Shown here one piece after another: positions 349 through 13,828 of a DNA stretch of 64,000 bases (positions are counted from its first letter, which is position 1; every line of letters starts with the position of its first letter). The DNA is from Pararhodobacter zhoushanensis (GTDB taxonomy: Bacteria; Pseudomonadota; Alphaproteobacteria; Rhodobacterales; Rhodobacteraceae): NCBI RefSeq assembly GCF_003990445.1, contig NZ_REEZ01000009.1, positions 62,001-126,000 on the forward strand, read 5' to 3'. The translations under genes and the position numbers were made by a program. Under the pieces are notes generated by a model. That model worked only from the letters and a program-made list of their open reading frames with translations. It did no database searches and was not told the origin of the DNA.

Positions 349-398
349 ACCGGCGCGTTCTTTCCGGGCCTTCGGGCCCACCAACACGGAGGCTATTT

Positions 399-8826: not shown

Positions 8827-9732
8827 ATGGACTGGGACAAGCTCAGAATCTTCCACGCGGTGGCCGATGCCGGCAGCCTGACCCATGCCGGCGATACGCT
8901 GGGCCTGAGCCAGTCGGCTGTCAGCCGACAGATCCGCGGCCTTGAAGAAGGTCTCGGCTCGACCCTATTCCACCGCCACGCGCGGGGGTTGATTCTGACC
9001 GAACAGGGCGAGCTGTTGTTTGACGCCACCCGCGCGATGACCAAACGCCTTGATACCGCCGCCGCGCGCATCCGCGACAGTGAGGAAGAGGCGTATGGCG
9101 AACTGCGGGTGACGACCACCACGGCCTTTGGCACGCTCTGGCTGGCCCCTCGCCTGCCGACGCTTTACGCCAAGTACCCTGAGATGAAGATCGACTTGAT
9201 GCTGGAAGAGCGCGTGCTCGACCTGCCCATGCGCGAAGCCGACGTGGCGATCCGCATGAAAGAGCCCAGCCAGGCCGACCTGATCCGCAAGCGGCTGATG
9301 TCGGTGCGCATGCGGCTGTACGCATCGACCGAATACCTGCGCCAGAACGGCACGCCCCAAAGCCTGCCCGAGATGTCCGATCACCGGCTGGTCTGCCAGC
9401 ACGCGAACGCCAATCAGGTCGCCGCAGGCGCGGCACTGGTGCGCGAGCTGATGACCCATGCAATCAGGACAACCTTTACCGTCAATAACTACTTTGGCGT
9501 TCTGCAGGCGGTGATCAATCATCTGGGCATCGGCGTGCTGCCCGACTACCTGACCGAAGACTTCCCGCAACTGGTCCGCGTCCTGCCGGATGTGGAAAGT
9601 GCTGAGGTTCCGGTGTTCCTCGCCTATCCCGAAGAGCTGCGGCACTCCAAGCGCGTGTCGGCCTTTCGGGACTTCGTGCTTGAGGGTGTGATCGCCTATC
9701 GACGCAACCGTTCGAACATAAACAGCGAGTAG
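8827..9732 (+). CDS. LysR family transcriptional regulator
   Basis: A 301-residue regulator. The N-terminal winged helix-turn-helix spans about residues 1-62 (LRIFHAVADAGSLTHAGDTL, then LSQSAVSRQIRGLE). A periplasmic-binding-like effector domain follows (TTTAFGTLWLAPRLP, MREADVAIRMKEP). The frame is open upstream to 8524, but that part crosses the oxidoreductase gene; the ATG at 8827 begins the canonical HTH. The leader has no clear ribosome site. Its closest target by position is the divergent oxidoreductase; a dyad between the genes may be its operator. The inducer is unknown. Confidence 0.9.
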   Translation: MDWDKLRIFHAVADAGSLTHAGDTLGLSQSAVSRQIRGLEEGLGSTLFHRHARGLILTEQGELLFDATRAMTKRLDTAAARIRDSEEEAYGELRVTTTTAFGTLWLAPRLPTLYAKYPEMKIDLMLEERVLDLPMREADVAIRMKEPSQADLIRKRLMSVRMRLYASTEYLRQNGTPQSLPEMSDHRLVCQHANANQVAAGAALVRELMTHAIRTTFTVNNYFGVLQAVINHLGIGVLPDYLTEDFPQLVRVLPDVESAEVPVFLAYPEELRHSKRVSAFRDFVLEGVIAYRRNRSNINSE

Positions 9733-9814
9733 AACGCGCGGCGGTTGTGTTGACGTAGGGTGAGGCATGCGCGCAACGCATCACGGTTATGTCGCATGCG
9801 CAGCGAAGAATATA

Positions 9815-9843
9815 TTGAACGCGTGCAACGATTCGACTATTTG
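9815..9843 (+). promoter_or_regulatory. Promoter-like element upstream of the sRNA candidate
   Basis: TTGAAC (9815-9820), a 17-bp spacer, then TATTTG (9838-9843). It would place a transcript start near 9850, which is exactly where the 11-bp hairpin begins. The -10 is imperfect; sigma-70 or an RpoH-type sigma are both possible. Confidence 0.45.
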
Positions 9844-9849
9844 GGACGG

Positions 9850-9924
9850 GAAGATACATGTTTCTTCATGTATCTTCACCTCCCTGTTGGACTTGGGCCG
9901 AGCTTTGCTCGGCCTCTTTTTTTG
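9850..9924 (+). ncRNA. Candidate small RNA (~75 nt) with 5' hairpin and CCUCCC linker
   Basis: In order: a perfect 11-bp stem (GAAGATACATG with CATGTATCTTC, loop TTTCTT, 9850-9877); an 18-nt single-stranded linker, 9878-9895, containing ACCTCCC, complementary to Shine-Dalgarno sequences; and a Rho-independent terminator, 9896-9924. A promoter-like element lies at the right distance upstream. No ORF fits the segment. It overlaps the 3' end of the convergent ECF sigma gene by about 59 bp and is antisense to it. Architecture resembles known Rhodobacterales stress sRNAs in a general way; I cannot assign it to a family. An alternative is that the hairpins simply terminate lysR transcription. Confidence 0.5.
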
Positions 9925-11131
9925 TCAAATTGCCTGCCAGATCCGCTAACCGTGCACGCAAAAAGGCAGTTTCCGCCTCATTTCCCGACAAATCGATCGC
10001 CCGCGCATAGGCTTGCGCCGCTTTTTTCAGACGACCGGTGCGCGATAGCAGTGCAGCATGCGCGGCGTGAAACGGCTGATACGTGGCAAGATCAACCGCC
10101 AGAGCCTCGACTTGAGCAAGCGCCGCCTCGGGTGCGCCGACCTCGGCCAGCGCCACGGCGCGATTCAGGCGCACCACGGGCGTCGGCTCGAACCGCAAGA
10201 GAGAGTCATAGAGCAAGAGCACCTGCGCCCGATCGACCGGGTCGCCCATATGCAGCGCGGCGATGGCAGCCTTGATCTGGAACGGCCCCGGCGCGCGCCG
10301 GGTCAGCGCCTGTTCGATCAGCGCCTCACCTTCGTCTATCAGCCCTCGGTCCCACAAGCTACGATCCTGCGCGTCCAGCGGCACCAGCGTGCCCGCATCA
10401 AGCCGCGCAGCGCGGCGCGCATCGGTCAGCAGCAGCAGTGCCAGAAGCCCTTGTACCTCGGGCTCGCTGGGGCGCTGCTCATTCAGCATCCTGGCCAGAA
10501 AGATCGCCTCGGCGCACAGGTCCACACGGTCCGGCCCACGACCAGCAGTGACCGCGTAGCCTTCATTGAAAATCAGATAGATAACCGTCAACACGGACTC
10601 AAGCCGCGCCGCCCAATCCGCGGGCCCCGGCACCACGAAGGGAATCCCGGCCCGCGCGATCTTGGCCTTGGTGCGGCTAAGACGCTGACCCATCGCCGTC
10701 TCACTGTCCAGAAACGCACGGGCGATCTCGACCGTCGTCAACCCGCCCAGCGTGCGCAGGGTCAGCGCGACACGGCTCTTGGGGTCCAGTGCCGGGTGGC
10801 AGCAGGTGAAGATAAGGCGCAGGCGTTCGTCGGGTATCTCGGGCGTCTCGGCGCTGCTGAACTCTTCGGCGAGCAGCGCCACTGTCGGCGATGCCGCCCC
10901 GGCGCGCTGCGCGCGGCGCAAACGGTCCAGCGCCTTGCGCCGCGCCACGGTGAGCAGCCAGGCGCGGGGCTGATCGGGCACGCCAGACCGGCCCCAATGC
11001 AGAAGCGCCGCTTCCGTCGCGTCGGACAAGGCGTCTTCTGCTAGATCAAAGTCGCGGAACCCGGCGATGAGGGCGGCCAACAGCCGCCCCCGATCTTCCG
11101 CCAGCACCCGTGCCAGCGCCTCTTTGCTCAT
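9866..11131 (-). CDS. ECF sigma factor, ECF42-type with TPR-like C-terminal extension
   Basis: A 421-residue sigma factor. Region 2 is near the N-terminus (FRDFDLAEDALSDATEAAL, WLLTVARRKALDRLRR), and region 4 lies around residues 105-155. A long helical extension follows with the markers IFTCCHPAL and YLIFNEGY, typical of the SigJ-like ECF42 group. Its ATG overlaps the stop of an upstream DGPF/YCII gene as ATGA. ECF42 factors are known to pair with DGPF proteins and lack a classical anti-sigma factor. The last residues are encoded over a plus-strand terminator and an 11-bp palindrome, so this tail may vary between relatives. Target genes are unknown. Confidence 0.9.
   Translation of the reverse strand: MSKEALARVLAEDRGRLLAALIAGFRDFDLAEDALSDATEAALLHWGRSGVPDQPRAWLLTVARRKALDRLRRAQRAGAASPTVALLAEEFSSAETPEIPDERLRLIFTCCHPALDPKSRVALTLRTLGGLTTVEIARAFLDSETAMGQRLSRTKAKIARAGIPFVVPGPADWAARLESVLTVIYLIFNEGYAVTAGRGPDRVDLCAEAIFLARMLNEQRPSEPEVQGLLALLLLTDARRAARLDAGTLVPLDAQDRSLWDRGLIDEGEALIEQALTRRAPGPFQIKAAIAALHMGDPVDRAQVLLLYDSLLRFEPTPVVRLNRAVALAEVGAPEAALAQVEALAVDLATYQPFHAAHAALLSRTGRLKKAAQAYARAIDLSGNEAETAFLRARLADLAGNLTKKEAEQSSAQVQQGGEDT
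9896..9924 (+). terminator. Rho-independent terminator inside the 3' end of the convergent sigma gene
   Basis: GGCCGAGC pairs perfectly with GCTCGGCC around TTT and is followed by TCTTTTTTTG. It is the strongest intrinsic terminator in the first 10 kb. It ends plus-strand transcripts (lysR or the sRNA candidate) while lying within coding sequence of the minus-strand sigma gene. Confidence 0.8.
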
Positions 11132-11668: not shown

Positions 11669-13828
11669 ATGCTCGAACCTGAAATCACCGCTGAACTGAT
11701 CGCTGCGCACGGTCTGAAACCAGACGAGTACGAGCGCATCCTCGAGATCATTGGCCGCGTGCCCAGCTTCACCGAGCTGGGGATCTTCAGCGCGATGTGG
11801 AACGAGCATTGCTCGTACAAATCGTCGAAGAAGTGGCTACGCACCCTGCCGACCACCGGCCCGCAAGTCATCTGCGGCCCCGGTGAGAACGCCGGTGTGG
11901 TCGATATCGGCGACGGTCAGGCGCTGATCTTCAAGATGGAGAGCCACAACCACCCGTCCTATATCGAGCCCCACCAAGGGGCGGCGACGGGCGTCGGCGG
12001 CATTTTGCGCGACGTCTTCACCATGGGCGCGCGCCCGGTGGCGGCGATGAACGCGCTGAGCTTCGGGCTGCCCTCGCATCCCAAGACAGCCCATATCGTC
12101 AAGGGTGTGGTCGAGGGTATCGGCAGCTATGGCAACTGCTTTGGCGTGCCCAACGTCGGCGGCGAAGTGCGCTTCCACGCCAGCTATAACGGCAACTGTC
12201 TGGTCAACGCCTTCGCGGCGGGTCTGGCGGACACCGACAAGATTTTCTACTCGGCGGCCTCGGGCGTCGGCATGCCCGTGGTCTACCTTGGTGCCAAGAC
12301 CGGACGCGACGGGGTTGGCGGCGCGACCATGGCCTCGGCCGAGTTCGATGACACGATCGAGGACAAGCGCCCCACGGTGCAGGTCGGTGACCCGTTCACC
12401 GAAAAGCGCCTGATGGAAGCGACGCTTGAGCTGATGCAGACCGGTGCGGTGATCTCCATTCAGGACATGGGCGCGGCGGGTCTGACCTGCTCGGCGGTCG
12501 AGATGGGCGACAAGGGCGGACTGGGCATCAAGCTGCAGCTCGATGATGTGCCGCAGCGCGAAACAAACATGACCGCCTATGAGATGATGCTGTCGGAAAG
12601 CCAGGAGCGCATGCTCATGGTCCTGCACCCCGAGAAAGAGGCCGTCGCCCGCGCCGTGTTCGAGAAATGGGATCTCGATTTCGCCATCGTCGGTGAAACC
12701 ATCCCCGAGGATCGCTTCCTGATCCTGCACGGCAATGACATCAAGGCTGACCTGCCGCTGTCCAAGCTGTCCTCGGAAGCGCCGGAATACGACCGTCCGT
12801 GGGTTGCGACCCCCGCCGCAGCGGACATGGAGCCGGTGCCGCAGGTTGATCCAATCGACGCGCTCAAGGCGCTGATCGGCAGCCCGAACTATGCCCATAA
12901 ATCATGGGTATGGGAGCAATACGACCACATGGTCATGGGCGATACGGTCCGCGTCCCGGGTCTGGGCGCGGGCGTGATCCGCGTCCACGGCACGCCCAAA
13001 GCCATCGCCTTCACCAGCGATGTGACCCCGCGCTACGTCAAGGCGAACCCGGTTGAGGGCGGCAAGCAAGCCGTCGCCGAGGCGTATCGCAACCTGACCG
13101 CCTGCGGGGCCCTGCCCCTTGCCACCACCGACAACCTGAACTTCGGCAACCCCGAAAAGCCCGAGATCATGGGTCAGATGGTCGGTGCGATCCAGGGGAT
13201 CGGCGAGGCCGTCGCGGCGCTGGACATGCCCATCGTGTCGGGCAACGTCTCACTCTACAACGAGACCGACGGCACCGGCATCCTGCCAACGCCAACGATT
13301 GGTGCGGTCGGCCTGCTCAACTCGCTTGATGAGCTGATCGCGGGCCAACCTTCGGCTGGCGATTTCGCCATCGTCATCGGCGCGACCGCTGGCCATCTGG
13401 GCCAATCCGCCCTGCTGGCCGAAGTCTTCCACCGCGAAGACGGCGACGCGCCGCACGTGGATCTGGTGGCCGAGCGCCGCAACGGCGAGTTCCTGCGCGC
13501 CAACCGCGCGCTGATCAAAGCCGCGACCGATCTGGCCGATGGCGGTCTGGCGCTTGCCGCCTTCGAGATGGCCGAAGCTGCGGGCATGGGCGTCTCTCTG
13601 GATGAAAGCGACAGCGCGTTCCTGTTTGGCGAGGATCAGGCGCGCTATCTGGTCGCCTGCCGCTTCGATCAGGCCGAGGCGCTGATGGTTGCCGCCTCCG
13701 CTGCCGGTGTGCCGATGAACACGGTCGGCAAATTCGGTGGTGACACGGTGTCGATGGGCGCATCCTCGGCCCCGCTGGCCGAGCTGTCTGCGCGCTATCG
13801 CTCGGCCTTCGAAGAGGCGATCGCCTGA
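11669..13828 (+). CDS. purL: Phosphoribosylformylglycinamidine synthase subunit II
   Basis: A 719-residue small-type PurL. It performs the ATP-dependent FGAR to FGAM step of purine synthesis with PurQ and PurS, which are not in this window. Visible blocks are [15 protein letters not shown], the ATP/Mg region [28 protein letters not shown], and the AIR-synthase C-terminal domain ([20 protein letters not shown]). The ATG follows GGGGGACGGA. The stop codon overlaps the likely CTG start of the next gene, suggesting translational coupling. Confidence 0.96.

Follow-up and report, generated by a model that had tools for sequence, protein, structure and literature searches.

A compact element lies between a LysR-type regulator gene and a convergent ECF sigma factor gene in the DNA of Pararhodobacter zhoushanensis analysed here (64,000 nucleotides, referred to as the window). 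It raises the questions of which RNA it encodes, what controls this RNA, and whether the RNA acts on the sigma factor gene with which it overlaps. The element very probably encodes a small regulatory RNA (sRNA), namely the local version of SorY, a stress RNA of Rhodobacter sphaeroides.

Layout and fold of the element

Direct reading places TTGAAC at 9815-9820 and TATTTG at 9838-9843, separated by a 17-nt spacer. The hairpin, the ACCUCCC linker, the terminator and the promoter-like boxes described in the initial annotation are all present where it had located them (Table 1). The terminator stem consists of eight Watson-Crick pairs and one G-U pair, and it is also picked up by a terminator scan. 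The 75-nt RNA folds with -33.9 kcal/mol versus a mean of -12.5 for shuffled sequences (z -7.87), and none of 200 shuffles was as good. By analogy with the mapped 5' end of SorY (locus L026, see below), the sRNA would start at 9848-9849, within 2 nt of the start at about 9850 that had been predicted. The idea that the element is an sRNA unit of its own, in which the anti-Shine-Dalgarno linker is exposed, is backed by this fold and by the conservation, the covarying 5' stem and the promoter register described in the following sections.

Table 1. Coordinates of the sRNA and of the features surrounding it in the window.
Feature	Position	Strand	Details
LysR-type regulator gene, LsrB/VtlR-like	8827..9732	+	Pfam HTH_1, LysR_substrate; directly upstream of the sRNA
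Putative LysR (LsrB-like) binding site	9767..9791	+	ATGC-N7-GCAT at 9767-9781, then CAC-GG-TTA-TG; G at 9786, T at 9790
Putative RpoH-type promoter	9815..9842	+	TTGAAC 9815-9820, CTATTT 9837-9842; TTG-N19-CTANNT register
sRNA, SorY-type, about 75 nt	9848..9924	+	SorY model match 9851-9922; start placed by reference to the mapped 5' end of SorY
5' hairpin	9850..9877	+	Perfect 11 bp, 9850-9860/9867-9877, loop TTTCTT; from the fold
Single-stranded linker ACCUCCCUGUUGGACUU	9878..9894	+	ACCTCCC 9878-9884; anti-Shine-Dalgarno CCUCCC 9879-9884; presumed target-pairing region
Intrinsic terminator	9895..9923	+	Stem 9895-9903/9907-9915, T-run 9917-9923 (seven T)
ECF sigma factor gene	9866..11131	-	Sigma70_r2, Sigma70_r4_2, DUF6596; convergent; last 59 bp are the sRNA complement

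Identity as a SorY counterpart

An Infernal/Rfam scan had been suggested as a check of the candidate. At gathering scores, it returned no match anywhere in the whole window. With an E-value threshold, SorY (RF02651) came out on top, its full model matching the stretch at 52.8 bits (E 4e-10) and thus falling short of the Rfam gathering score of 111 bits. A comparison with StsR and CcsR had been proposed, but neither name appears in the list of 11 Rfam matches obtained up to E 10 (Rfam may hold neither). SorY of R. sphaeroides itself scores 115 bits. In the Rhodobacteraceae, a match to the SorY model with an E-value of 0.001 or lower was obtained for 138 of 149 genomes, a count that can include SorX-type copies, as these may also reach this value. 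Because the SorY cut-off passes just one of the 149 genomes of the family, the window RNA remains unlisted by Rfam.

The sole hit above the cut-off, G069:C4:1632645-1632727 (locus L026), begins three bases after genome position 1,632,642, which is reported as the main 5' end of R. sphaeroides SorY, an RNA with its own promoter (PMC6238624). As the model start lies only three bases from the published 5' end and the genome fits R. sphaeroides 2.4.1, L026 is taken as SorY itself. The same genome encodes a TRAP protein (L295), the full 365 residues of which align with PDB 2hzk at 848 bits; we take this entry to be TakP of R. sphaeroides. The structure table labels it SmoM.

The window RNA has the layout of SorY, with the linker CCUCCCUGUUGGACUU between two hairpins and a terminator at the end, and CCUCCCUGUUGGACUU is also contained in the SorY model. 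Both RNAs have the linker and terminator core CCUCCCUGUUGGACUUGGGCCGAGCUU, the two-hairpin layout and the RpoH-type promoter register in common. The 5' stem in the window differs from that of SorY, being shorter and largely different in sequence. With regard to gene order, a LysR gene upstream and purL downstream are found both in the window and at L026, where the LysR match spans G069:C4:1631580-1632431. In the window, the sRNA is separated from purL by two further genes, encoding an ECF sigma factor and a YCII protein. Since LysR precedes and PurL follows it as in R. sphaeroides, the window RNA is regarded as the positional counterpart of SorY. Judged by place and sequence, it is a SorY counterpart that lies outside RF02651 as drawn by Rfam, and not a new kind of RNA.

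SorX and alpha-r8 relatives

Two further Rfam models match the window stretch, namely SorX (RF02784) with 39.9 bits (E 1.5e-8) and suhB/MmgR (RF00519) with 29.9 bits (E 1.4e-4). Membership was rejected for both, as the gathering scores are 46.6 and 41 bits, respectively, and as the upstream gene is of the LysR and not of the OmpR type in the case of SorX. SorX is described as located in the 3' UTR of an OmpR-type gene and as processed (PMC6238624, PMC9438474), and a SorX copy in the window would likewise be a processed, 3'-UTR-derived RNA. The E-value and the linker core common to both RNAs are in line with this reading. The terminator is of the same type as well. However, a better SorX is present elsewhere in the same genome (G000:C54:222290-222363, L056), scoring 67.4 bits and thus exceeding the cut-off. 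The linker of this copy is located 121 bases past the stop codon of an OmpR-type response regulator gene, as for SorX in R. sphaeroides. The window copy, in contrast, follows a LysR gene and possesses the TTG-N19-CTANNT promoter register, which was found in none of nine SorX-type copies. It is thus extremely improbable that the window RNA is a SorX copy, and the assignment to SorY is retained.

A third SorX-like hit in the genome, G000:C2:48546-48613 (L058), was not counted, as it contains no CCTCCCTGTTGG core. This weak hit (31.2 bits) has a TTAGACTGGCCGGCC terminator and starts a few bases past the apparent stop of the second-best LsrB-like LysR gene (C2:47656-48507). L058 is perhaps a second, degenerate LysR-sRNA pair. 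In the loci L019 and L021, a second CTCCCTGTTGGACT core is located about 110 bases downstream of the SorX-type copy, and some genomes may thus carry SorX as a tandem pair.

The alpha-r8 RNAs, which include MmgR (RF00519) and SisA-D of Caulobacter, resemble the window RNA in their 5' hairpin, the CCUCCCU motif and a GACUUGGGCC-type terminator, but their linker is 3-4 nt shorter. When 30 alpha-r8 copies were taken from other families in the class, none had any of the five window neighbours beside it. Upstream features discussed in a later section are equally scarce at these 30 copies, with no exact VtlR box, one relaxed form, two dyads and no LysR neighbour. The SorX model matches in Caulobacter vibrioides, albeit below the cut-off, and four alpha-r8 loci from other families yielded no SorY or SorX match at E 0.01. 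According to PMC12559287, MmgR was the only alpha-r8 member characterised before, and the main text of this work mentions neither SorX nor SorY. A search of the open-access literature, which did not extend to the original SorY and SorX papers, revealed no link between SorY or SorX and alpha-r8; one paper (PMC9670543) contains both 'sory' and 'mmgr'. A common descent of SorY-type RNA and alpha-r8 is considered likely.

Synteny, conservation and covariation

For the comparison across genomes, 134 copies were oriented by the CCTCCCTGTTGGAC core and searched with the window proteins. They include the window (L002) and eight pairs of loci of the same sequence; counts of distinct regions drop such identical stretches. 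Four loci were excluded: L001 and L057, which are further copies of the window record, L040, which lacks the core at the expected place, and L058. The loci L080-L159 represent 80 of at least 119 stretches and were picked by an exact 28-base linker/terminator pattern, which is why conservation of the linker is not argued from them. The loci L002-L056 originate from BLAST or from the SorY and SorX models, a selection that also favours the linker.

The synteny proposed as a test is borne out, with a LysR gene upstream of the sRNA in 118 of the 134 SorY- or SorX-type copies. The remaining 16 comprise nine SorX-type copies, four with short upstream sequence (L097, L103, L130, L138) and three without the gene (L030, L044, L159). 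Downstream, 77 of the 134 copies are followed by PurL in the orientation of the sRNA and one by PurL in reverse, and many stretches end before the position of purL. In the window, purL is located at 11669-13828, beyond the two inserted genes. Two loci carry unexpected organism titles. L097 (JAESPQ010000023.1), titled Alteromonadaceae, has a SorY-type linker, as does L159 (CP059262.1), titled Exiguobacterium profundum, which also shows ECF42 and PurL matches. Both are probably misassigned metagenome assemblies.

Within the genus, 17 of 19 genomes match by DNA, the genome of the window included. An alignment of 16 genus sequences revealed that the linker ACCUCCCUGUUGGACUU is unchanged in all 16, and that ACCTCCCTGTTGGACTT and the GGCCGAGC/GCTCGGCC stem are invariant. 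Eight of the nine terminator pairs never vary. The 5' stem, on the other hand, shows changes on both sides in seven of its 11 pairs. Two-sided changes were counted in 13 cells versus a shuffled mean of 3.9 (0 of 500 shuffles as high), and 91.4% of cells are paired versus at most 50.7% when the structure is slid; the structure used in this test was taken from the window, a choice that favours it. A score for further pair types was equalled by 28 of 500 shuffles, and RNAalifold gave a small covariation term of -0.48 kcal/mol with five pairs showing two-sided change. In the wider set of copies, 107 of 113 distinct 42-base 5' segments form one hairpin that ends no more than 5 nt from CCUCCC (mean z -3.0). 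Conservation thus concerns the shape of the 5' hairpin and the sequence of the linker. A conserved promoter, loop and linker with covarying stems in relatives had been named as support for the candidate. The 5' stem does covary, and both the linker and the promoter register are kept.

Overlap with the ECF sigma factor gene

The sRNA and the sigma factor open reading frame (ORF) overlap by 59 bp (9866-9924), as first described. The initial annotation suggested a possible local antisense role on the sigma factor mRNA, meaning that a cis-antisense RNA would control the 3' end of the convergent transcript. The 59 bp of complementarity in the window follow from the position of the two genes, and three members of the genus (L003, L005, L007) likewise have a sigma factor ORF that extends into the complement of the sRNA. 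As a conserved function, however, this role is not supported. The ECF42 gene was seen in only 26 of 134 copies, and the ORF reaches into the sRNA complement in 16 of these 26 loci, while it ends before the sRNA in the other 10. A LysR gene upstream and purL downstream without an ECF42 match within the stretch were found for 64 of the 134 copies, and the RNA is retained where no ECF42 gene is seen. In the 16 loci with an overlap, the position of the sigma factor stop codon varies, with distances of 3 to 237 bases ahead of the linker (sRNA coordinates). The tail SAQVQQGG of the window sigma factor recurs in L127, because it is encoded by the complement of the conserved linker. Antisense control of the sigma factor mRNA was thus rejected as the conserved role and is very unlikely as an explanation of the window RNA. 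This comparison of loci indicates that the constraint acts on the RNA of the SorY type, that the overlap is incidental, and that the ECF sigma factor is not part of the conserved unit. The sigma factor ORF (9866-11131) ends in run-on codons, and its start-to-stop annotation overstates the conserved C-terminus.

Putative promoter and upstream dyad

The promoter-like boxes had been described without assignment to a sigma factor. A scan for sigma-70-type promoters found none at the element, so that the term promoter is only valid in an RpoH-like sense. The sigma-70 reading was dropped in favour of the RpoH-type register, which fits. For RpoH promoters, TTG at -36 to -34 is reported for both RpoH proteins; C-14 and T-13 are over-represented for RpoHII, A-12 is important and essential for RpoHII, and T-9 is associated with RpoHI (PMC3441632). 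The window register TTG-N19-CTANNT fits these published RpoHI/RpoHII positions (PMC3441632). Among 115 distinct upstream regions of SorY-type copies, 77 contain this register versus 25 of 5657 background windows, and 95 contain a looser form of it versus 36 of 5657. Within the genus, the spacing in L003 is one base longer, and no recognisable -10 element was found in four members (L008, L009, L012, L014). R. sphaeroides SorY is reported to be under the control of RpoHI/RpoHII (PMC5036791, PMC8307010).

Further upstream, 85 of 121 SorY-type copies contain a dyad of the form ATGC-N4..10-GCAT at a distance of 60-160 bases from the linker. The same pattern occurs elsewhere in these loci 73 times in 550,794 bases, and in two of 70 intergenic stretches between iorA and LysR. 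T-N11-A is the form of LysR sites, and ATGC-N7-GCAT fits this form. When the spacing is set to 7 bases, all eight dyad bases are present in 75 of the 121 SorY-type copies, seven in 34 and six in 12, the last being no better than background. Background windows contain eight bases in 0 of 2881 cases and seven in 4.9%, and the nine SorX-type copies have eight bases in none and seven in one.

The dyad starts 34 nt past the stop codon of the LysR gene in the window and is readable as a stem of 4-7 bp with a 7-nt loop, so that it could instead represent a hairpin formed by the 3' end of the LysR mRNA. This is unlikely in view of the fixed geometry of the dyad. Of the 107 occurrences detected with N4-10, 81 have a 7-nt spacing, and in 49 of 56 copies with both elements the dyad centre is 40-41 bases away from the T that opens the -35 element. 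Moreover, the two most fixed positions beyond the dyad, G19 (70 of 72) and T23 (72 of 72), are outside the stem. A protein-binding site is the preferred reading. The extended pattern ATGC-N7-GCAT-N4-G-N3-T was found in 72 of 113 distinct regions and in 0 of 7361 background windows, which are mostly coding DNA and therefore an incomplete control for composition.

A similar site is known from the regulator VtlR, for which the box GCAT-N3-TG-N3-T has been proposed (PMC7486931). GCAT, G and T of the SorY-upstream site are found at the same offsets as in this box (PMC7486931), but where the box has the T of TG, the 77 sites compared carry T in only seven cases and G in 57. Accordingly, the exact VtlR box is present in 11 of 113 distinct regions (48 of 7361 background windows), compared to 93 of 113 for GCAT-N4-G-N3-T (379 of 7361). 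The pattern ATGC-N7-GCAT-R-N-CGG was found somewhere in 135 of 149 genomes, often in several places, and its reversed control is rarer but of other composition. These scattered sites may or may not reflect a wider LysR regulon. The stretch ATGCAGATCCTGCATGCCGG, e.g., G081:C1:34540-34559, recurs away from the sRNA in at least 10 genomes among the matches listed; these sites are perhaps a conserved coding stretch.

The LsrB-like LysR neighbour

The closest PDB relative of the window LysR protein is 9hh1 (E 3.8e-69), with the next at E 1.3e-28. This entry is the deposited structure of LsrB from A. tumefaciens (PMC11975290). The two proteins are identical at 114 of 285 positions and at 44 of the first 60 residues, and each is the best match of the other, in the PDB and in the genome, respectively. 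In six of six chosen genomes, three of them from the genus of the window, the SorY-adjacent LysR is the best match to LsrB, with 226-250 bits versus 119-125 for the next. The redox cysteine pair described for LsrB is not kept, as 101 of 106 LysR copies contain at most one cysteine (none in 31, one in 70, two in five), and the window protein has a single one (190). The neighbour is therefore called LsrB-like and is not filed as LsrB. Upstream of the window LysR gene, a gene of the indolepyruvate ferredoxin oxidoreductase family is encoded in the opposite direction.

VtlR is reported to activate the abcR sRNAs in Brucella and Agrobacterium (PMC7486931). The reported LsrB/VtlR-AbcR system of the Rhizobiales and the SorY locus resemble each other in the LsrB-type LysR protein, in a box that starts with GCAT and has its G and T equally far from it, and in the transport-related sRNA. 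The SorY locus differs in that it has another sRNA, another gene order and no LsrB-style disulphide pair. As the regulator, the site and the adjacent transport-regulating sRNA are all alike, LsrB-type control of SorY is proposed, and the LsrB-like LysR protein probably controls the SorY-type RNA through the upstream dyad.

Proposed mechanism and candidate targets

In the proposed mechanism, the RpoH-type promoter would start an RNA of about 75 nt at approximately 9848-9850, which would be ended by the intrinsic terminator. For the LsrB-like LysR protein, the probable binding site is ATGC-N7-GCAT-N4-G-N3-T at about -75 to -77, from which it would control the promoter. The 5' hairpin would close the 5' end, leaving the linker ACCUCCCUGUUGGACUU exposed, and could protect the RNA together with the terminator. 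The linker would pair, probably on Hfq, with the Shine-Dalgarno regions of mRNAs, and translation or stability of these would be lowered. Pairing of this kind has been proposed for SisA and other related sRNAs (PMC12559287). For SorY of R. sphaeroides, the transcript, its 5' end, Hfq binding and dependence on RpoHI/RpoHII have been reported, as has a target, the mRNA of the metabolite (malate) transporter takP. Induction by singlet oxygen and lowering of takP are further traits by which SorY is defined. By analogy, these traits and the LysR control are inferred to extend to the window organism.

The pairing with ribosome-binding sites suggested by the initial annotation is in agreement with the exposed and conserved anti-Shine-Dalgarno linker, but pairing with takP was no better than that of shuffled linkers. 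The duplex of the window RNA with a takP-like gene of its own genome (L301) reaches -18.0 kcal/mol, which was matched by 642 of 2000 shuffled linkers. The real SorY-takP duplex reaches -24.1 kcal/mol, and with 204 of 2000 shuffled linkers as good it is not significant by the same test.

In the genome of the window organism, 21 sites with up to one mismatch to CCAACAGGGAGG were found. The reversed pattern gave seven, but the comparison is biased, since any Shine-Dalgarno site will match CCUCCC. Three of the 21 sites are exact, and two of these are the complements of the two sRNAs. Eight of the 19 other sites precede the start codon of an ORF of at least 120 aa, and some of these ORFs appear by eye to encode transport binding proteins and catabolic enzymes. 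Across the family, CCAACAGGGAGG-N4-9-ATG occurs in 144 of 295 genomes; among 30 loci examined, 24 are the sRNA's own complement according to an automated test, and two more (L216, L227) look like it by eye. At window positions 381-392 (L079), CCAACACGGAGG differs by one mismatch from the linker complement and lies six bases before the start of a 360-aa ORF, the product of which resembles, on visual inspection, the binding protein of an ABC transporter. L079 is a possible candidate target of the sRNA.

As a whole, the locus is best explained, with a probability of roughly 0.87, by a SorY counterpart that has an RpoH-type promoter, is probably under LsrB-like control and pairs with ribosome-binding sites.

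Implications for the Rhodobacteraceae

With this assignment, an anonymous stretch of DNA becomes a named, testable sRNA. SorY-like RNAs are widespread in the Rhodobacteraceae, though concealed by the Rfam threshold. The LysR neighbour provides a candidate transcription factor for SorY, the control of which is attributed to sigma factors alone in the accessible parts of the published work. LsrB is stated in PMC11975290 to be found solely in the Rhizobiales. A clear counterpart of LsrB adjoins SorY in six genomes of the Rhodobacteraceae, which speaks against this restriction.

The odds appear even that LsrB/VtlR control of a transport-regulating sRNA is an old alphaproteobacterial circuit and not a speciality of the Rhizobiales. 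In such a circuit, the LsrB counterpart of the Rhodobacteraceae would bind upstream of SorY and set its level, and SorY, SorX and alpha-r8 (MmgR, SisA-D) would be of one origin. If true, a metabolic or redox signal would be joined to an RpoH stress promoter, through an sRNA that differs from the AbcR RNAs of the Rhizobiales.
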